Assembly (NCBI RefSeq): GCF_003544855.1
Contig: NZ_CP032101.1
Coordinates: forward strand, 186,001 to 250,000
Reading direction: 5' to 3'
Length of the DNA stretch: 64,000 nucleotides
From: Malaciobacter marinus
GTDB lineage: Bacteria > Campylobacterota > Campylobacteria > Campylobacterales > Arcobacteraceae
Shown: positions 15,538-45,991 of the stretch, piece by piece
Layout: each line of letters opens with the position of its first letter
Numbering within the stretch: position 1 is the stretch's first letter
Translations under genes and position numbers: made by a program
Notes under the pieces: generated by a model
The model's input: only the letters and a program-made list of their open reading frames with translations
What the model was told of the DNA's origin: nothing
The model's database searches: none

Positions 15538-17052
<1,515 letters not shown>

Positions 17053-17139
17053 CAGAGAAAAGATTAAGAGAGTCAAAACTCTTAATCAAAAAGTCAATAT
17101 ATATTCAGTTTATAAAGGTTATTTAAAAGATAGGTGAGA

Positions 17140-17216
17140 GGGCCTATAGCTCAGCTGGCTAGAGCGCTCGACTGATAATCGTGAGGTCCCAGGTTCAAGT
17201 CCTGGTAGGCCCACCA
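17140..17216 (+). tRNA. tRNA-Ile (GAT)
   Basis: 77 nt in the 16S-23S spacer, acceptor GGGCCTA/TAGGCCC, anticodon ctGATaa, encoded CCA. The anticodon stem ctcga/tcgtg contains a U28-U42 mismatch, an oddity for a spacer tRNA. Confidence 0.94.
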
Positions 17217-17252
17217 TGATTAAATAATCTTAAAAGAAGAGATTAAAAAGTT

Positions 17253-17328
17253 GGGGAATTAGCTCAGCTGGGAGAGCGCCTGCCTTGCACGCAGGAGGTC
17301 AGCGGTTCGATCCCGCTATTCTCCACCA
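17253..17328 (+). tRNA. tRNA-Ala (TGC)
   Basis: 76 nt, second spacer tRNA. Acceptor GGGGAAT pairs with ATTCTCC with a G-U, anticodon stem cctgc/gcagg around ctTGCac, encoded CCA. Confidence 0.96.
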
Positions 17329-17422
17329 ACAAATAAGAAGAAGTTAAATATAAGTTCAATGAAGATTGAATTTATATTTAATTTTTTCAGAGATGAGAAG
17401 ATTAAAGAGTTATTTAAAAATA

Positions 17423-17521
17423 TAATGTTAAAGTCAAAAATTTTTCTAAGAAAAGAAAGCAATTTCAAGAAAAGAAGAAGAACACAACTATTTTATTAAA
17501 TTTAATAAGATAGTAGCCAAG
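17423..17521 (+). other. 5' arms of pre-23S processing stem
   Basis: Two segments before 23S have complements in order after it. 17423-17435 (taatgttaaagtc) pairs exactly with 20533-20545, and 17480-17521 pairs with few mismatches with 20488-20527 (for example gaacacaact with agttgtgttc). Together they give a long irregular duplex closing the 23S precursor, a likely RNase III target. Confidence 0.75.
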
Positions 17522-17562
17522 GAATAATTATCAAAAAAGGTTAGAGTAAGATCTAATTAAAA

Positions 17563-20484
<2,922 letters not shown>

Positions 20485-36944: not shown

Positions 36945-38321
36945 TTAATATTTTATTATAAATTCAGAACCTTGATGAAGTTTACTCTTTATTTCGAGTT
37001 TAAAATTGTGTAGTGATAAGATAGATTGAACGATAAAAAGCCCAAGACCCAAAGAGTTATTCCATCCATTCTTTGATACTCTATAAAATTTTCTATTAAT
37101 TAAATCTAGTTCTTTCTCATCTATTCCAATGCCTTTATCTATAATGCTTATTGAAGAGGGTGTGATTTTAATAATTACATCATTTTCTGAATATTTTAAA
37201 GCATTCTCCACTAAATTTGATATTGCCATTTCCATTAAAGTTTCATCAAGCTTTAAAATTACATCTTCCCCTTCTATTGTAATCTCATGATCTTTATATT
37301 TATCTTTTAAATCTGATACTGCAAAATCACAAAGTTTTTTTATTGAACAGCTTTGTGTTGTAATTTGTTGTTTACCCTCTTCAAGTTTTAATGATAATCT
37401 TAGTTTATCGATTATTTGTGACATTTTATTACCATTTGTTTGAATTTTATGAAGAAATTTTTTTCTCATATTTTCAGGTAAATCCAAATCAGTTAGTAAA
37501 GTTTCACTATATCCAGAAATAATAGCAATAGGATTCTTGAATTCATGGGATATTGCAGAAATTATTTCATCTTTTTGTCTATTTGCAAGTTTTAGTTTTG
37601 CTGTTTGTTTTGACTTTTGTTTCTCTTTTTTAGAAAGTTTAGAAGAAACTTTGTTTAAAAATCTTGCTATTTTATTGAACTCTTGTGTATAGTTTGAACT
37701 TATTTGATAGTTTGGTCTTCCATCACTTAAATCAATTAAATATTTCAAAATAGCATCTGTTTCATTTTTTATTTTAATACTAATAAAATAAGTAGCAAAA
37801 AATGCCAAAATCAAAAATAGCGTAATTATTGCTATGACATGAAAAGATAATTTAAAAAAGTTTTCTTGAATTTTATCTGTATAATCAGCAAGTCTTATGT
37901 AATAAATAGCATCATTTAATTTTATTTTTTTTGCCACATACAAAAGCTCTTTATTTATTGAATCTGAAAATCTTATGCTTTTCCCATAATCATCATATCT
38001 AGCATGAATGATTTCATCTCTTTTTAAGTGATTGTCCATTGATTTCTTATCTTTATCACTTTCTGTAATAACATTACCTTTTTCATCAATTATTGTAATT
38101 CTAAGGTTTGTTTTATTTTTAAATTTGTTTACTATTTTTTCTATATCTTTAATATTATTTAATACAAGTGATATTGAATCAATATTTTGAGAAAGATTTT
38201 TTTCTATTTGTTCCATATAAATATTTTTTGACCAAAAATAAGTAGTGAAACTAATACTTAAAAATATAAGAAAAAATATAATAATAAAAGTTCTTAAAAA
38301 AAGTTGATGAATTTTTAACAA
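36945..38321 (-). CDS. phoR: Sensor histidine kinase, PhoR-like
   Basis: 458 aa. Two membrane helices (about 8-29 and 155-180) enclose a roughly 125-residue periplasmic sensor region containing LRITIIDEKGNVITES. After a HAMP-like linker the dimerisation domain has ISHEFKNPIAIIS with the phosphoacceptor His, and NLVENALKYS, DKGIGI and GLGLFIV complete the kinase. It is the last gene of the pst-pho operon and overlaps the regulator gene by 7 bp, so it is the expected phosphate-responsive partner; the periplasmic domain is not proof of signal. Confidence 0.85.
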   Translation of the reverse strand: MLKIHQLFLRTFIIIFFLIFLSISFTTYFWSKNIYMEQIEKNLSQNIDSISLVLNNIKDIEKIVNKFKNKTNLRITIIDEKGNVITESDKDKKSMDNHLKRDEIIHARYDDYGKSIRFSDSINKELLYVAKKIKLNDAIYYIRLADYTDKIQENFFKLSFHVIAIITLFLILAFFATYFISIKIKNETDAILKYLIDLSDGRPNYQISSNYTQEFNKIARFLNKVSSKLSKKEKQKSKQTAKLKLANRQKDEIISAISHEFKNPIAIISGYSETLLTDLDLPENMRKKFLHKIQTNGNKMSQIIDKLRLSLKLEEGKQQITTQSCSIKKLCDFAVSDLKDKYKDHEITIEGEDVILKLDETLMEMAISNLVENALKYSENDVIIKITPSSISIIDKGIGIDEKELDLINRKFYRVSKNGWNNSLGLGLFIVQSILSLHNFKLEIKSKLHQGSEFIIKY

Positions 38322-38989
38322 AAGATATATCCCTCACCTCTAATAGATTTTATATACTCTTTTTCACCCTTTGGGTCTATTTTTGCTTTTAATCTTTTAA
38401 CTGCAACATTTACTGTTTTTAGTTTTTTTTCAATTGAATCTTCCCATACAGTATTTAATAAGTGTTCCCTTGACATTAAAATATCTTTATTTTTTACAAA
38501 TTCTAGTAGCAAGTCATGTTCTAAATGTGTTAAATCAATAGCTTCATTATTAATATAAAATCTTTTATTATTTGCTTTATATACAATATCTTTGACTTTT
38601 AAAACCTCTATATCTTTAGATGTTCTTTTTAATACAGCTTTTACTCTTGCACATAACTCTTTTAGATTAAATGGTTTTGTAATATAGTCATCTGCATATG
38701 ATTCAAAACCTTCTAAAATATCTTCATCTTTGTCTTTTGCTGTAACATAAATTACAGGGTTTACATAACCTTTTGATCTTATTTTTGAAATAAATGTAGC
38801 ACCATCAATACCTGGAAGATTTCTATCCATTAAAATTAAATCAACATTTTCTTCATCCAAAATTTTATCAATTACTTTATTAATACTCAAACATCCAATT
38901 GTTTCATATCCTTCTTTTTGTAAGGTATATTCAAGTAACTCTAAAATATCTTCTTCATCTTCAACAATTAATATTAATTTATTTTTCAT
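38315..38989 (-). CDS. phoB: OmpR/PhoB-family response regulator
   Basis: 224 aa. The receiver domain has acidic residues in VEDEEDILELLEYT, the phospho-acceptor Asp in LILMDRNLPG, and the Lys in DDYITKPFN. The winged-helix output domain ends RGEGYIFC. It sits between psiE and the kinase in the pst operon, overlapping both, so it is the likely PhoB equivalent. Its expected binding sites are the GTAACC repeats upstream of pstC and pstS. Confidence 0.87.
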   Translation of the reverse strand: MKNKLILIVEDEEDILELLEYTLQKEGYETIGCLSINKVIDKILDEENVDLILMDRNLPGIDGATFISKIRSKGYVNPVIYVTAKDKDEDILEGFESYADDYITKPFNLKELCARVKAVLKRTSKDIEVLKVKDIVYKANNKRFYINNEAIDLTHLEHDLLLEFVKNKDILMSREHLLNTVWEDSIEKKLKTVNVAVKRLKAKIDPKGEKEYIKSIRGEGYIFC

Positions 38990-39374
38990 CTATTTCTTCT
39001 TTTGTTAAAATATCTTTTTTACTTGGAGAGTATTTTATAGCAAGTATTCTAAATATAAAGAAAACCAAAATCACAAATAGTAGAAATAGTATAGTAAAAT
39101 AATCTTTTTCTGCATGTGATGTGTATATGATAACATCTCTTATTAAGAAAATTATAAATATATCGATTACAAATCTAAGCCTTAGTTTTGCTTTTTTTAT
39201 AAAGTCAGAAATCATTTTCATAACTTCCATTATTACGATAAATTCTAACATTAAAACAATTGTTCTTTGAAAGTCTAATTTTACAGCAAGAATTATTATA
39301 AAAATAATAGTTGCTGCAAGAAATTCATAGTTATTCTCAAAATAATTTCTAATTTTTTGAATGGCTTTTTTCAT
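38979..39374 (-). CDS. psiE: Phosphate-starvation-inducible PsiE-like membrane protein
   Basis: 131 aa with four membrane helices (about 17-35, 37-55, 70-85 and 93-112), with LDFQRTIVLMLEFIVIMEVMK and RDVIIYTS matching my recollection of the PsiE family. The function is unknown; E. coli PsiE is induced by phosphate starvation. Its place between phoU and phoB inside the pst operon agrees with a phosphate role. It overlaps phoB by 11 bp and starts 3 bp after the phoU stop. Confidence 0.75.
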   Translation of the reverse strand: MKKAIQKIRNYFENNYEFLAATIIFIIILAVKLDFQRTIVLMLEFIVIMEVMKMISDFIKKAKLRLRFVIDIFIIFLIRDVIIYTSHAEKDYFTILFLLFVILVFFIFRILAIKYSPSKKDILTKEEIDEK

Positions 39375-39377
39375 ATA

Positions 39378-40043
39378 TTATTGTTCTAATTCTCCACCTA
39401 TGTATGCAAATACAATTAAATTTGCAATACTTGTAGCTCTATCAGCACATTTTTCTAGTTTTCTTAAACTACTTAGTAAGTTAAAGTAATCTCTAGAAAG
39501 TTCTTGGTTTTTTGAAATAAGTTTTAGAATGTTTTTTTCAACCATCGCATATAAGTCATCTGTTTTACTCTCTTCAACTAATACTTTATTAAAACTCTCT
39601 TCTATAAGCTTTTCATTTGTTTCATCAAGCATACTTAATGTTATTTCAAGTGCACTAGCTGCAGCTTTTTGTAAGGGAATTGCATATTCTAAAATAGTAG
39701 TTTCATCAAGTTCATCTGAAAATGATTTTCTAAAAGTCTTTATAAATATTTTTGAATTAGTACCCGCTCTTACTAATTCATTTGTAATCTTTAAATAAGA
39801 AACCATATGTCTTAAATCTTTTGCTTCTGGTGAATATAAAGCAAGTGTTGTAACTATTAAATTGTCAATTTCATTTGATTTTGAAACTAATTTTTTTAAA
39901 GATAAATCAATATCTTTTAATAAATTTATGTCATTATCTTTTAATGCTTTTAATGAAGTTTTATTAGCTTTTAATACAATTTCGCCAATCTGCCTTATTT
40001 CATTTTTTATTGTTTTGATTTTTTCCTCATAAGTTTTTAACAT
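39378..40043 (-). CDS. phoU: Phosphate transport regulator PhoU
   Basis: 221 aa of two repeated three-helix PhoU units. The E/D-x-x-x-D metal-binding patterns appear as NEIDNLIVTT and KTDDLYAMVEK; RDYFNLLSSLRKLEKCADRATSIAN matches the C-terminal signature. It couples the Pst transporter to PhoR signalling. It overlaps pstB by one base. Confidence 0.93.
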   Translation of the reverse strand: MLKTYEEKIKTIKNEIRQIGEIVLKANKTSLKALKDNDINLLKDIDLSLKKLVSKSNEIDNLIVTTLALYSPEAKDLRHMVSYLKITNELVRAGTNSKIFIKTFRKSFSDELDETTILEYAIPLQKAAASALEITLSMLDETNEKLIEESFNKVLVEESKTDDLYAMVEKNILKLISKNQELSRDYFNLLSSLRKLEKCADRATSIANLIVFAYIGGELEQ

Positions 40044-40822
40044 TATCCAAACCTTCCTGTAATATAATCTTCTGTTTTTTTATTATTTGGATTTACAAAT
40101 ATTGTTTCTGTTTCATCATACTCAATTAGTTTACCTAAGTGAAAAAATGCAGTATAATCAGCAACTCTTGCTGCTTGTTGCATATTATGAGTAACAGTTA
40201 TAATTGTATAATCTTGTTTTAGCTCTAACATTAAAGCTTCTATCTTTTCTGTTGAAATTGGATCAAGTGCAGATGTTGGCTCATCCATTAAAATAACTTC
40301 TGGTTTTACAGCAATTGTTCTTGCTATACAAAGTCTTTGTTGTTGACCTCCTGAAAGTGATGTTCCTGGTTCACCTAATTTGTCTTTAACTTCTTCCCAT
40401 AAACCAGACTTTTTTAAAGATGACTCAACTAACTCATCACACTCTTTTCCTTTTTTTACAATTCCATGCTTAAGTGGTGCATAAGCTACATTTTCATAAA
40501 TAGATTTTGGAAATGGATTTGGTTGTTGAAAAACCATTCCAATTTTTTTTCTAACACTTACTTCATCCACATCTTTATCATAAATATTTTTTTTATCAAT
40601 TATCACTTCACCATCACTTTTTACAATTGGAATTAAATCATTCATTCTGTTTAAACATCTTAAAAATGTAGATTTTCCACATCCAGATGGTCCAATTAAA
40701 GCTGTTATTTTATTTTTATAAATATCTACGTCAATATTGTGTAAAGCATGATTATCTCCATACCATAGATTTAAAGCTTTAACATTGACTTTTATTTCAT
40801 TCTTTTTATTTTCTTTATTCAT
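40043..40822 (-). CDS. pstB: Phosphate ABC transporter ATPase PstB
   Basis: About 259 aa. Walker [11 protein letters not shown]-loop [13 protein letters not shown], signature LSGGQQQR, Walker [13 protein letters not shown] and switch His in VTHNMQQA are intact; NPFPKS and the length are typical of PstB. I set the start at 40822 (MNKENKK) because TAGGAAA lies about 7 nt before it; an upstream ATG at 40840 gives six more residues but a poorer ribosome site. The pstA stop is 11 bp upstream of the chosen start. Confidence 0.95.
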
Positions 40823-40833
40823 TTTAATATTTC

Positions 40834-42024
40834 CTACCATTTAACTTCGAATTTTTTTCTTAAATATATTGCAAGTGTATTTAGTGAAATTAAAACACTT
40901 AATAAAACAATAATACCAGCTGCTGTTTTTTCTATATACATTCTTTCTGGCATTCCTGCCCATGTAAATATTTGAGCTGGCATAACAGTTGCAGCTTGTG
41001 TAACAGAAGATGGAGCATCGGGAATAAATGCAATCATACCAACAATAATAAGTGGAGCTGTTTCTCCCATAGCTTGTGCAAGTCCAATAATTGAACCTGT
41101 CATAATTCCAGGAAAAGCTAAAGGTAAAACATGGTCTCTTGTTACTTGAATTTTTGTAAGACCAAGTCCATAACCTGCTTGTCTAATAGAATCAGGAACA
41201 CTTCTTAATGCAGCCCTTGCACTTACAATTATAATAGGTAATGTCATAAGTGCTAAAGTTAGACCACCAACTAAAGGTGAACTTCTAGGAAGCCCAAATA
41301 AGCTTATAAATATTGCAAGACCCAAAAGACCAAATAGTATTGATGGAATGGCTGCAAGATTATTTATATTTACTTCTATTATTTGTGTAAACTTATTATC
41401 TTCTGCAAACTCTTCAAGATAAATTGCTGTCATAACTCCAATAGGAAAAGCAACAAGCATTGTAATAAGAAGTGTTAACACTGAACCAATAATTGCTGAT
41501 TTAAAACCTGCATATTCAGGTGTTTTAGAATCTCCATTTTCAAAAAAGAGTTTATTAAATTGTAGTTGTGCTTTGTTTTCAGCTTTTAAATCATCAACTA
41601 TAATTCTATCTTTTCTTTTTAACTTATAATAATGACCCTTTAAATATTGATCAACTTGATCATCTGCTAAAACCCATGTAGAGATTGTTTTACCCATTAA
41701 ACTTGGATCTTTTTCAATCATATTTGGAACTTCTCTAATCCATGCTCTTGAAACAACACCTGTATATTTTCTATCAATTGATTTTCTATAGTTTTTTATT
41801 GATGTTTCATTATATGTTACATCAACAAGTAAATATGCTTGTTTAAAAGCAGGTGAACCTTTTGTAACTATATCTGTTAAGAAAAATGCTAAAAATGCAA
41901 TAGAAAAAACAAGTGAGCCAAGAGTAAAAAGCTTGAATCTTCTTGAACTTTTATGCCTGTTTTTTAAACTTGGGTCATAAAATGGATTTTCTTCTTTTTT
42001 ATTCTTTTTTCTTTTAATTATCAT
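40834..42024 (-). CDS. pstA: Phosphate ABC permease PstA
   Basis: 396 aa, longer than most PstA proteins because of a periplasmic region of about 130 residues between the first helix (near residues 35-52) and the transport core. The core has the binding-protein-dependent permease motif (EAA loop) near [25 protein letters not shown]. Six membrane helices follow the usual scheme. It overlaps pstC by 4 bp (ATGA). Confidence 0.92.
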
Positions 42025-42950
42025 AATGTATTCACTTTATATTTTTCTTTAAATTTTCTAATTAACATTAGTGAAATAATATTTAATACTAATGTCACAA
42101 TAAACAAAACAAGTCCTAATGCAAATGCTGAAAGAGTAGCAGGAGAGTTAAAAGCTTGATCTCCTACAAGTGCATCAACAATTCTAACTGTTACTGTTGT
42201 CATATCTTCTAAAGGATTGATTGATAAATTTGGTCTTAAACCTGCTGCCATAACAACAATCATAGTTTCACCTAAAGCTTTTGAAAGACCTAGCAATGAA
42301 GCTGAAATTATACCTGGCATTGCAGAGGGTAAAACAATATTTTTTATTGTTTCTCCTTGCGTCAAACCTAATCCCAAAGAAGCTTTTCTTTGTGAGTCTG
42401 GAACAGCTCTAATTACATCATCACTTAATGATGCAATTACAGGAATTATCATAATCCCCATTACGATACCAGATGCAAGTGCTGAGTTAAACGAGGCTTC
42501 AAAACCTAATGAAGCAGCTGCTTTTACAACAAATGGAGCTACTGTAATTGCAGCAAAGAAACCATAAACAACAGTAGGAATACCTGCTAAAATCTCTAAA
42601 AGTGGTTTTAAAGTATTTCTTACTTTTCCTGATGCATATTCACTTAGATAAACAGCACTTCCCAGTCCAACTGGTATTGCAACTGCCATTGCTATAATTG
42701 TAATTACAAAAGTACCTGTAAAAATAGGCACTGCACCAAATTTACTGTTTGCAATTCCTGGTGACCATTCTGTACCTGTAATAAAGTACCAAAAACTTCT
42801 TAATTTGAAAAATTCTATAGCTTCAAAAAGAATTGAAAATAGAATTCCAAATGTTGTTAAAATAGAGATAATTGAAGCAGTAATTAATAATGCCTTAATT
42901 ACTTTTTCTTTTATCTCTGTGGATTTATTTCTTGTTTCAAAGGGTGTCAA
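42021..42950 (-). CDS. pstC: Phosphate ABC permease PstC
   Basis: 309 aa, six membrane helices, with the EAA loop ASLGLGLTQGETIKNIVLPSA. Forms the channel with PstA. TTG start (TTG ACA CCC TTT) with a ribosome site AAAGG about 9 nt upstream. It is the first gene of the seven-gene operon and is preceded by the GTAACC direct repeat and a -10 box, so it has its own phosphate-regulated promoter. Confidence 0.94.
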   Translation of the reverse strand: MTPFETRNKSTEIKEKVIKALLITASIISILTTFGILFSILFEAIEFFKLRSFWYFITGTEWSPGIANSKFGAVPIFTGTFVITIIAMAVAIPVGLGSAVYLSEYASGKVRNTLKPLLEILAGIPTVVYGFFAAITVAPFVVKAAASLGFEASFNSALASGIVMGIMIIPVIASLSDDVIRAVPDSQRKASLGLGLTQGETIKNIVLPSAMPGIISASLLGLSKALGETMIVVMAAGLRPNLSINPLEDMTTVTVRIVDALVGDQAFNSPATLSAFALGLVLFIVTLVLNIISLMLIRKFKEKYKVNTL

Positions 42951-42981: not shown

Positions 42982-43014
42982 ATTCTATAGAAAATTGGTT
43001 ACAAATAGGTTACA
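42982..43014 (-). promoter_or_regulatory. Putative Pho box and -10 of pstC
   Basis: On the minus strand TGTAACC-TATT-TGTAACC occupies 43014-42997 (7-4-7, period 11), then exactly 9 nt, then TAGAAT at 42987-42982. The same spacing is seen upstream of pstS. The repeat overlaps the stop codon of the preceding EAL-GGDEF gene, which ends at 43010. Confidence 0.7.
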
Positions 43015-44758
43015 TTAGAATACAACTACCAAGTGGAGTGTTTGTAAGCTTGGAATCTTTTTTTATTTTTCCTAGTACTTTATCAAGATTTGAAGAGTTT
43101 GAATATTTTGTAATTTCTATTATGGCAGAACATACACTTAAAAGTTTAAATTTTCTCATTACTGCAAATCTATCTTTAGTTCTTATGAATCCATTTTCTT
43201 TATCTTCTTCATTATATAAACTACTAACACATTGTTTAAACTCTTGTTGTATTTGCTTTGTTTTTTTATATACTTTCTCAAATTTTTTGTTTTTAAATCC
43301 TACAAAAAAATCATCCCCTCCAATATGCGCAATAAAACTATTTTTAGATAAGTTTTTTTGTAATAATTCAGAAAATATCAGTATTGCTCTATCTCCTTGT
43401 CTAAATCCATAATAGTCATTAAAAGGCTTAAAATCATTAAAGTCAAAGTAGACTATATGTGTTATATCATCACTTTGGAAACTCTCTTTTATAAACTTAT
43501 CAATTTGATTATTACCAGGAAGTTTTGTAAGAGGATTTTGATTTTGTGCAATTTCAATATTTCTTTTAAAGGATAAAGACAAAAGATTATTTACATTAAT
43601 AAATCCAATATATTTACTATTTTTTGTTACAAAGATACCTTTTGATTTATTGCCTCTTAAATTAAACATTTCTAATGTTTTATCTATTCCCCAAGATACT
43701 TCAATAGATAATGATGGTTTTATATATGAACTCAATCTTGATTTAAAAGATACATTTTGTGCAAGTGATAAGCCATATTGTGAATATGATAGTTTTTTGA
43801 TATCAACTTCATAAACCACTCCCATAAGTGTTTTATATTCATCAATAATTGGAACAAAAGTATTATTTGGAAACTCTTTAAAATATAAAAACAAATCATG
43901 CAAACTTGAATTGATACTAAGTGGTTCAATAAACTCAATATAATCTTTATCAATTAAATTACTTTTATTGTTTCTTCTGTCATTTTTAAAAAGATATGGA
44001 ATATCTTCATAGGTGTCTTGTATATCTAATATATTTAGACTTGGTTTTAAAATTAAAAAACCTTGAATATAATCAATATTAATCTCTTTACAAGTATAAT
44101 ATTCTGCAATTGTTTCTATACCCTCAGCTATTACTACTATACCCATAACATGTGCCATATCTACAATTGAAGAACAAAATAGTTTTTTTCTTGAATCTTT
44201 ATTTATATCTTTTATAAAAAATCTATCAAGTTTAATATAGTCTGCTTCACTCAAATATAAAAGTTCAAGCCCTGAAATACCAGTACCAAAATCATCAATT
44301 GCAATATTGAAACCTTCATTTTTATAATTAGTTAATATTTTATTAATCATAATTTTATTTTGCATTGAGCCATTTTCTGTAATTTCAAAACAAATAGAAT
44401 TCTCTTTAATATTTAGTTCATTTAAGATTTTATTTGTATTTCCTTTTTCATAATCAGGCATATACAAAAGCCTATTATCTAAATTATAAAAAAGTTTTAA
44501 ATCTTCTATTTTTATATGACTAAATTTTTCAATAGCTTTTTTTCTAAGAATTAAATCAATTTTATAGAGTATTTTTTTATCAAAGAAACTATCAAATAGA
44601 TCTAAAATAGATTTATATCCAAGATTTTGATATCCTCTTATTAAAGCTTCAACAGCAAAAGTTTTTCCAGTTCTTGTATTTACTATTGGTTGAAATGCAT
44701 AATCTAACTTATCAACAATTATACTGAAATCTTCACTTGGTTTTTTTGCAGTCGACAT
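43010..44758 (-). CDS. c-di-GMP protein with EAL, CBS and GGDEF-like domains
   Basis: 582 aa. Order is EAL (residues 10-250), a CBS pair (about 265-390), then GGDEF-like (about 400-570). No membrane helix. The EAL domain keeps EALIRG, EITENG, DDFGTGISG, IKLDRFF and EGIET, so phosphodiesterase activity is plausible. The GGDEF core reads GGDDF, with Asp in place of the signature Glu, so cyclase activity is doubtful; it may bind nucleotide as a regulator. CBS modules often bind adenine nucleotides. It lies between pstS and pstC, which suggests, but does not show, a link between phosphate and c-di-GMP. Confidence 0.85.
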   Translation of the reverse strand: MSTAKKPSEDFSIIVDKLDYAFQPIVNTRTGKTFAVEALIRGYQNLGYKSILDLFDSFFDKKILYKIDLILRKKAIEKFSHIKIEDLKLFYNLDNRLLYMPDYEKGNTNKILNELNIKENSICFEITENGSMQNKIMINKILTNYKNEGFNIAIDDFGTGISGLELLYLSEADYIKLDRFFIKDINKDSRKKLFCSSIVDMAHVMGIVVIAEGIETIAEYYTCKEINIDYIQGFLILKPSLNILDIQDTYEDIPYLFKNDRRNNKSNLIDKDYIEFIEPLSINSSLHDLFLYFKEFPNNTFVPIIDEYKTLMGVVYEVDIKKLSYSQYGLSLAQNVSFKSRLSSYIKPSLSIEVSWGIDKTLEMFNLRGNKSKGIFVTKNSKYIGFINVNNLLSLSFKRNIEIAQNQNPLTKLPGNNQIDKFIKESFQSDDITHIVYFDFNDFKPFNDYYGFRQGDRAILIFSELLQKNLSKNSFIAHIGGDDFFVGFKNKKFEKVYKKTKQIQQEFKQCVSSLYNEEDKENGFIRTKDRFAVMRKFKLLSVCSAIIEITKYSNSSNLDKVLGKIKKDSKLTNTPLGSCILM

Positions 44759-44846: not shown

Positions 44847-44872
44847 ATTAAAGAGGAGAGTTCCTCTTTAAT
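44847..44872 (-). terminator. Terminator between pstS and the EAL-GGDEF gene
   Basis: Perfect 11-bp arms (attaaagagga at 44847-44857, tcctctttaat at 44862-44872) with a 4-nt loop, just downstream of the pstS stop. It could attenuate pstS transcription into the next gene, allowing abundant binding protein. Confidence 0.6.
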
Positions 44873-44874
44873 AT

Positions 44875-45927
44875 TTAATGTTTTAAATCTTCTAATGTAA
44901 GATTTTGTCTTTTAGAAACTCTTGTTTTAATAGTTTCTCTTTGTGCTTTTGGTAAAGGAATAAGACCAATTTCAGTTAAAATTCCATTTTCACCAATCAT
45001 CATATCATCTGTGAACATATTTACATACTCTTTCATAGCAGGAACATCTTTTTCATGTGAATTTTTAATATAGAAAAATAGTGATCTTGATACTGGGTAT
45101 TTACCTGAAGAGATTGCATCTGGAGTTGGCATTACTCCATTAATTTTAGAACCAATCAATTTATCTTCATTTTCAACTAAGAATGAATATCCAAAAATAC
45201 CAAATGCATTTTTATTTTTAACTAATTTTTGAACAATTAAGTTATCATTTTCACCTGATGGAACATATACACCATCTTGTCTTACTTTATGGTATTTTTT
45301 ATAAGCTTTATATTTTTCTTTATCTTTTTTATATAAAGATGTATATTCTGGCATTTTTTTGAATGTAGCTTTTAAAATCATATCTTCAAATGCATCTCTA
45401 GTTCCTGATGATTTTGGAGGACCATAAATTATGATTTCTCTATTTGGTAGTGATGAGTCAATCTCAGACCATTTTTTATAAGGATTATCAATTAATTTTC
45501 CATTTTTTCCTGGAACTTCTGCTGCAACTGCTAATGCTAATTGTTTAGTAGTTACTGAAAATGGTTTATTATCTTTTGATTCAGCAAATGCAATTCCATC
45601 AAAACCTATTACTACTTCTGTGATTTTAGTAACACCATTTTTTTCACATAATTTAAACTCTTTAGTTTTCATTCTTCTTGAAGCATTTGTAATATCAGGT
45701 GTATTTAAATCATTTCCTGCACAAAATAGTTTCATACCACCACCTGAACCAGTTGATTCTACAACAGGAGTAGGGTATTTAGTTGTTGCTCCTAGTTCTT
45801 CTGCTACAGCAGAGGCAAAAGGATAAACAGTTGATGAACCAACCATTTTAATTTGATCTCTAGCGCTTAAACTTACAGTTAAAGCAGCACTTGCAAGAAT
45901 TGCTAATGTTGTTTTTTTTAATGTCAT
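44875..45927 (-). CDS. pstS: Periplasmic phosphate-binding protein PstS
   Basis: 350 aa with a signal peptide (MTLKKTTLAILASAALTVSLSA). The phosphate-binding MVGSSTVYPFASAVAEELG and STGSGGGMKLFCAG near the N-terminus, and PPKSSGTRDAFEDM, are family hallmarks. It delivers phosphate to PstCA. It is transcribed separately from the rest of the system with its own GTAACC repeat promoter and is followed by a terminator. Confidence 0.95.
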   Translation of the reverse strand: MTLKKTTLAILASAALTVSLSARDQIKMVGSSTVYPFASAVAEELGATTKYPTPVVESTGSGGGMKLFCAGNDLNTPDITNASRRMKTKEFKLCEKNGVTKITEVVIGFDGIAFAESKDNKPFSVTTKQLALAVAAEVPGKNGKLIDNPYKKWSEIDSSLPNREIIIYGPPKSSGTRDAFEDMILKATFKKMPEYTSLYKKDKEKYKAYKKYHKVRQDGVYVPSGENDNLIVQKLVKNKNAFGIFGYSFLVENEDKLIGSKINGVMPTPDAISSGKYPVSRSLFFYIKNSHEKDVPAMKEYVNMFTDDMMIGENGILTEIGLIPLPKAQRETIKTRVSKRQNLTLEDLKH

Positions 45928-45958: not shown

Positions 45959-45991
45959 ATTGTACACTTCGTTGGTTACATTTTGGTTACT
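45959..45991 (-). promoter_or_regulatory. Putative Pho box and -10 of pstS
   Basis: On the minus strand AGTAACC-AAAA-TGTAACC spans 45991-45974, then exactly 9 nt, then TACAAT at 45964-45959. The start codon follows about 30 bp further. The repeat unit, period and distance match the pstC site. Confidence 0.7.

Follow-up and report, generated by a model that had tools for sequence, protein, structure and literature searches.

The window, by which we mean the whole 64,000-nucleotide stretch of DNA that was analysed, comes from a genome of 2.917 Mb. It carries on its minus strand, in this order, prfA, pstS, an EAL-GGDEF gene, pstC, pstA, pstB, a phoU-like gene, a psiE-family gene and genes for a PhoB-like response regulator and a PhoR-like kinase. 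Related sequences place it in the Arcobacteraceae; among the matches, the closest named relative is Malaciobacter halophilus, with a PstS that is 90% identical. The relevant features, in the direction of the minus strand, are as follows.

45974..45991, minus strand: pstS twin box, AGTAACC-AAAA-TGTAACC, with the period and the −10 distance of the pstC box
45959..45964, minus strand: pstS −10 element, TACAAT, 9 nt 3' of the pstS box
44875..45927, minus strand: pstS (TIGR02136, 146 bits, below the cut-off of 206.6; placed in the pst operon)
44847..44872, minus strand: terminator or attenuator candidate just 3' of pstS, a strong hairpin with an AT-rich tail on the pstS strand; the T-run rule picks it out on the plus strand
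43010..44758, minus strand: EAL-GGDEF (c-di-GMP) gene, between pstS and pstC
42997..43014, minus strand: pstC box, TGTAACC-TATT-TGTAACC, a Pho-box-like direct repeat and candidate site of the PhoB-like regulator
42982..42987, minus strand: pstC −10 element, TAGAAT, 9 nt 3' of the pstC box
42021..42950, minus strand: pstC (TIGR02138, 284 bits, above the cut-off; TTG start as called)
40834..42024, minus strand: pstA (TIGR00974, above the cut-off)
40043..40840, minus strand: pstB (TIGR00972, above the cut-off)
39378..40043, minus strand: phoU-like gene (TIGR02135, 86.1 bits, below the cut-off of 130)
38979..39374, minus strand: psiE-family gene between the phoU-like and PhoB-like genes (PF06146, 32.6 bits, above the Pfam cut-off of 23.9; no match among NCBIfam profiles)
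38315..38989, minus strand: PhoB-like OmpR-family response regulator (best NCBIfam match TIGR02154, PhoB, below the cut-off)
36945..38321, minus strand: PhoR-like sensor histidine kinase (below all listed NCBIfam cut-offs)

The regulator scores 171.6 bits against TIGR02154, the best of the families listed, and misses the PhoB equivalog cut-off of 296.2 bits.

The preliminary description had reported TGTAACC-TATT-TGTAACC with a period of 11, exactly 9 nt before TAGAAT, and this arrangement is indeed read at 43014-42997 and 42987-42982 of the minus strand: two direct 7-bp units around a 4-bp spacer, the generic layout of a Pho box. It had also equated the element with that of pstS, which is exact for period and distance and holds for the unit except that the first pstS unit starts with A. 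Both boxes lie 5' of a −10 element, in the place of a −35 element, at phosphate genes, which is the generic placement of Pho boxes. The Escherichia coli K-12 phoA promoter (TGTCATA-AAGT-TGTCACG, nine nt, TATAGT) likewise has two 7-bp direct repeats with a period of 11, 9 nt before the −10 element when counted in the TGT frame, but the E. coli half-site is of the TGTCA type, whereas here it is TGTAAYC. The claimed difference from the CTGTCAT box of E. coli extends well beyond the window: without exception, both halves of the 45 pst boxes that we aligned contain GTAA, and none of these has CTGTCAT or a close variant as a half-site.

These boxes come from a search of 60 genomes, 29 of which, own included, had a pstS match; 28 full loci were read, a 29% pstS fragment (L066) being excluded. 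The relatives are not mutually independent, and some named contigs may duplicate G-labelled genomes. A box with a −10 element precedes pstS in 26/28 loci, and pstC has its own box in 19/27 (L093-L119; the more distant L120-L122 were excluded, L120 and L121 having no box and L122 one with 11/14 matches). In six of the eight genomes with a box-less pstC, the pstS box is kept. A TANANT −10 element stands at a fixed distance in the 45 boxes, with T28, A29, A31 and T33 each at 90% or more, though it was not used in picking the boxes. Two members of the same family (G002 and G009) have the box before a different type of pst operon. Farther out, the order's other families contributed 17 regions (PstC 27 to 36% identical). 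By our reading, 11 of these have a box near the pst operon, four of them a weak one (L155, L160, L168 and L169), and no clear box was found in the other six (L153, L154, L157, L158, L162 and L167).

The TAA stop codon of the EAL-GGDEF gene sits inside the first half of the pstC box, an overlap shared by 7/15 pstC loci with an EAL gene (within L093-L111, that of the window counted) and by 4/5 named contigs. Together with the abundance of loose matches in an AT-rich genome, this might suggest that the repeat is due to chance, or results from coding constraint at the 3' end of the EAL-GGDEF gene, before an ordinary sigma-70 promoter. However, the box begins 5 to 13 nt past the stop codon in 8/15 EAL-bearing loci and is kept in 3/4 loci without an EAL gene (present in L101, L105 and L111, absent in L107), and the promoter scan of the site lists no match with −35 and −10 elements. 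Counts made without reference to the motif speak against a by-product as well. When every 4-base direct repeat within 120 nt 5' of the genes in relatives is counted, GTAA with a period of 11 ranks first for both pstS (26/28) and pstC (19/27). Pooled, the period-11 repeats number 184, and each other period between 5 and 30 yields 5 to 32. We consider an origin by chance or coding constraint hardly credible.

The preliminary description had proposed a genome scan for the 7-4-7 pattern near other phosphate genes. With at most one mismatch, TGTAACC-N4-TGTAACC occurs in the whole genome at one exact and one single-mismatch site, the pstC and pstS boxes, and nowhere else. The loose bare motif, in contrast, is not enriched. 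Genome-wide, up to two mismatches give 8 sites, with 11 for the reversed pattern, and up to three give 131, with 152 for the reversed pattern; within the window alone, up to three mismatches give 6 sites where 4.36 are expected, which is chance level. Genome-wide enrichment of the bare motif was thus rejected; it takes the −10 element at 9 nt as a further requirement to bring out an excess (62 sites against 35). A degenerate pattern combined with the −10 element has four exact matches in the genome, before pstC, pstS, olsF and a Cj0069-family gene. Separately, positions 16737-17758 of the window contain two loose matches to the motif, some 1 kb from each other, and the identical pair occurs at least two more times in the genome; the pair probably belongs to a repeated element, for instance an rRNA operon, that is present in several copies.

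The box and the regulator occur together. The two loci with a box-less pstS (G012 and G042) belong to genomes in which the search at 1e-50 gave no PhoB-like match, and the 26 other genomes, all with the box, have such a match. OmpR-family regulators bind direct repeats (PMC4832192), and one of 11 bp might in principle serve any of them; a search of the own genome with the window regulator as query yielded 95 first-look candidates, of which 49 were scored. The box could therefore be the operator of another OmpR-family response regulator and not of the PhoB-like protein encoded downstream. This co-occurrence (2/2 absent, 26/26 present), the place of the PhoB-like gene in the operon itself and the phosphorus-related nature of the other target genes described below make another regulator improbable. 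Instead, the repeat is very probably a Pho box of altered half-site specificity, the predicted target of the PhoB-like regulator of the same operon. The preliminary description's candidate Pho box is borne out as a prediction by the concentration of the motif with its −10 element at phosphate genes, in the genome and in relatives, by the co-occurrence with the regulator and by the phoA-like geometry. A lack of enrichment near phosphate genes, which that description had named as refuting, was not what the scans showed. Features that it does not bring up are the overlap with the EAL-GGDEF stop codon, the psiE-family gene of the operon and the occurrence of the motif at lipid genes and pit.

In E. 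coli PhoB, T194, V197, R201 and R219 are described as making base-specific contacts (PMC3264566), and these residues, in E. coli numbering, are conserved in the window regulator, but D196 and H198 of E. coli are replaced by N and A, respectively. All 29 regulators of the family (L123-L151) have NVA in the helix; the PhoB loci were the best 30 of 46 genomes with a match. R219 is replaced by W in L027, L028 and L168. Helix and box are not strictly coupled across the order, because G055 and G049 have an NVA regulator with no clear box and G041 and G059 an NVT regulator with a box; G056 has a TVG regulator and no clear box.

A second regulator background is provided by eight contigs labelled as gammaproteobacterial or Methyloprofundus, which carry an Arcobacter-like pst operon with a PstS 68 to 73% identical to that of the window. 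Four of these (L017, L018, L020 and L025) have TGTCA in both halves of the box, and the other four (L014, L016, L021 and L022) have a hybrid TGTAAC/TGTCAT box, in each case in the same place. An E. coli-type PhoB with D196 and H198 is encoded in 8/8 of these genomes. As the contigs come from metagenome bins, mis-binning is possible, as is transfer of the operon. Operator and regulator appear to have changed together between the two backgrounds. Operators and recognition helices that differ as a pair, with related pst operons in two regulator backgrounds, would make this a case for the study of changes in response-regulator specificity.

The presence of two boxes in one gene cluster may be related to the hairpin 3' of pstS. 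A hairpin of −10 kcal/mol or stronger lies there in 24/28 loci, that of the window included: in 19/19 genomes with a pstC box and in 5/9 others. One genome (G008) has no such hairpin, only 42 nt between pstS and pstC, and no second box. The hairpin may attenuate read-through, with the second box restarting transcription. Since five genomes have the hairpin without a pstC box, it would be at most part of the reason for the second box, and the rule is not strict.

We then asked which other genes have the box, using a weight matrix derived from the 45 pst boxes that have 11/14 matches or more; lower-scoring loci were left out of the training and kept in the counts. The matrix threshold of 5 was chosen post hoc, once the scores were known, and at this threshold the box precedes olsF in 27/30 loci (best 30 of 34 genomes with a match), the plcP-like gene in 18/24 (one of 25 loci, L288, lacks upstream DNA) and phoH in 19/25, with near misses at 4.8 for one olsF (L263) and one prfA (L039). 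In four of the six phoH misses the repeat is present and the −10 element stands one base further away. The box was found in 0/5 distant phoH homologues (42 to 46% identical, from genomes with no closer one listed) and in 0/11 prfA controls (14 loci chosen, three with too little upstream DNA). As a broader control, the matrix was applied to 195 regions 5' of non-Pho ORFs, and 11 came out at or above the threshold of 5: two before pstS of another type, three own-genome regions that had been picked because of their scores, four before GT4 glycosyltransferase genes beside plcP and two before DUF155 genes. Setting aside the pstS-type and own-genome regions leaves 6/190, and counting the GT4 and DUF155 neighbours as regulon members leaves 0/184.

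OlsF itself matches the bifunctional ornithine lipid synthase model NF052615 of NCBIfam with 816.4 bits, against a cut-off of 620. The plcP-like protein is a calcineurin-like phosphoesterase (PF00149) for which NCBIfam gave no PlcP model match; we call the gene plcP-like tentatively, from its gene context. In four relatives (L275, L278, L279 and L284), a divergent GT4 glycosyltransferase gene beside it has its own box. In a genome from another family (G054), pstC, olsF, phoB, plcP and phoH all lie within 25 kb. DUF155 (RMND1-like) genes beside pstS or olsF (L065:528-1331 and L255:635-1438) have a box each.

In the own genome, where 150 of 6206 first-look candidates were scored with the pst-box model, pstC (29.6 bits), pstS (27.7) and olsF (19.6) come out on top, and the plcP-like gene (17.3 bits, E 0.02), pit (16.2 bits, E 0.05) and phoH (14.0 bits, E 0.26) lie among mixed sites. 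With such E values, single-genome support for these last three is weak, and the case for them therefore rests on the orthologues. Several of the best own-genome sites precede genes with no known phosphate role, namely a Cj0069-family gene, an M20 peptidase gene, an MCP-like gene and a short ORF. The Cj0069-family, ATP-grasp-like gene has an exact degenerate match with a −10 element (G000:C1:2511000-2514500, L226). Sites before radA-like (L004), glutamate-synthase-like (L005), chemoreceptor-like (L006; the same gene as L233), aminotransferase-like (L007) and tuf-like (L008) genes, all named from a reading of their translations, were set aside as chance or unproven. A second pst-like system (G000:C1:934612-936277) has no box upstream; the only listed model match nearby scores 11.3 bits and lies inside an ORF on the opposite strand.

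The site at pit, a PHO4-family phosphate transporter gene (G000:C1:62805-64382, minus strand), differs in orientation. A reversed GTAAY-N6-GTAAY lies within 60 nt before the pit start in 18/30 loci (L224, L319-L348; best 30 of 48 genomes with a match), against 3/958 control ORFs, which were called mechanically and include Pho genes. By reading of the sequences, the reversed box stands 3' of a −10-like element. In Sinorhizobium meliloti, PhoB represses pit, and the reversed box might similarly repress low-affinity uptake via pit during starvation. A regulator that could also repress would raise the question of whether the pstC box, too, is a repressor site and not an activator site. The orientation at the pst genes and the 9-nt distance are those of E. 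coli phoA, and the box stands in the place of a −35 element, which makes repression from the pstC box very unlikely.

As an activator site, the pstC box would work as follows. At low phosphate, the PhoR-like kinase would phosphorylate the PhoB-like regulator, two molecules of which would bind head to tail, one on each TGTAACC half-site, with a spacing of about one helical turn. Bound in this way, they would bring RNA polymerase to the −10 element nine bases downstream and take over the part of a −35 element. From the pstC box we infer activation of pstC-pstA-pstB-phoU-psiE-phoB-phoR, and, because this operon includes phoB, the regulator would boost its own level. The twin box would drive pstS and probably also the EAL-GGDEF gene. 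The hairpin 3' of pstS may limit read-through, so that the second box would re-supply transcription for the transporter and the regulators.

In a wider reading, to which we give somewhat better than even chances, the Campylobacterales have a re-specified Pho box, TGTAAYC-N4-TGTAAYC, read by a PhoB-like regulator with a changed helix (N for D196 and A for H198). Forward copies nine bases before a −10 element would activate pst, phoBR, olsF, the plcP-like gene, GT4 and phoH; the reversed copy at the pit start would repress low-affinity uptake; the EAL-GGDEF gene in the pst operon would join starvation to c-di-GMP; and in gammaproteobacteria the box would have been rewritten toward TGTCA for the host PhoB. 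The main value of these results lies in the range of target genes and in the change of specificity more than in a single site. The box would give work on phosphate control in these bacteria a specific operator to test, and the target genes predict a phosphate-controlled swapping of membrane phospholipids.

Comparable elements are known from other bacteria. Two papers give the Streptomyces coelicolor PhoP box as GTTCACC-N4-GTTCACC (PMC4832192, PMC4415409), a 7-4-7 direct repeat like the present one but with a different half-site and in a distant phylum. Closer by, within the same phylum, the phosphate two-component system PhosS/PhosR of Campylobacter jejuni has pstSCAB and phoX named as its targets (PMC3197622, PMC9449129). 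A Campylobacterales population genome is described as having phoU and phoB adjoining pstSCAB (PMC4674564). For marine bacteria, the pairing of plcP with agt and lipid-remodelling genes with Pho boxes have been described (PMC4796936, main text); here, similarly, a plcP-like phosphoesterase gene has a box and adjoins a divergent boxed GT4 gene in four relatives, but the box is TGTAAYC, and that main text does not mention Epsilonproteobacteria. Among the papers listed on Pho control in Arcobacter, C. jejuni, Campylobacterota and epsilonproteobacteria and on ornithine lipids in Arcobacter, no title or abstract start describes a TGTAAYC box; as the search covered few subscription papers, a printed description may exist.

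The C. jejuni PhosR box is reportedly GTTTC-N6-GTTTC (Wosten, 2006), unlike the TGTAACC half-sites of pstC. In a locus that we take to be Campylobacter-like (L153), the regulator is only 30% identical, PstS is of another type, and there is neither a phoU match nor a GTAAYC box.

In many Arcobacteraceae loci pstS and pstC are separated by the EAL-GGDEF gene, and in G013 and G028 an EAL homologue is found upstream of pstS instead; this hints at a connection of phosphate starvation with c-di-GMP. In one locus (L170, G005:C1:196000-208000), pstCAB is gone, the pstS, EAL-GGDEF, phoU, psiE-like, phoB and phoR genes are left, and the second box now stands before phoU.
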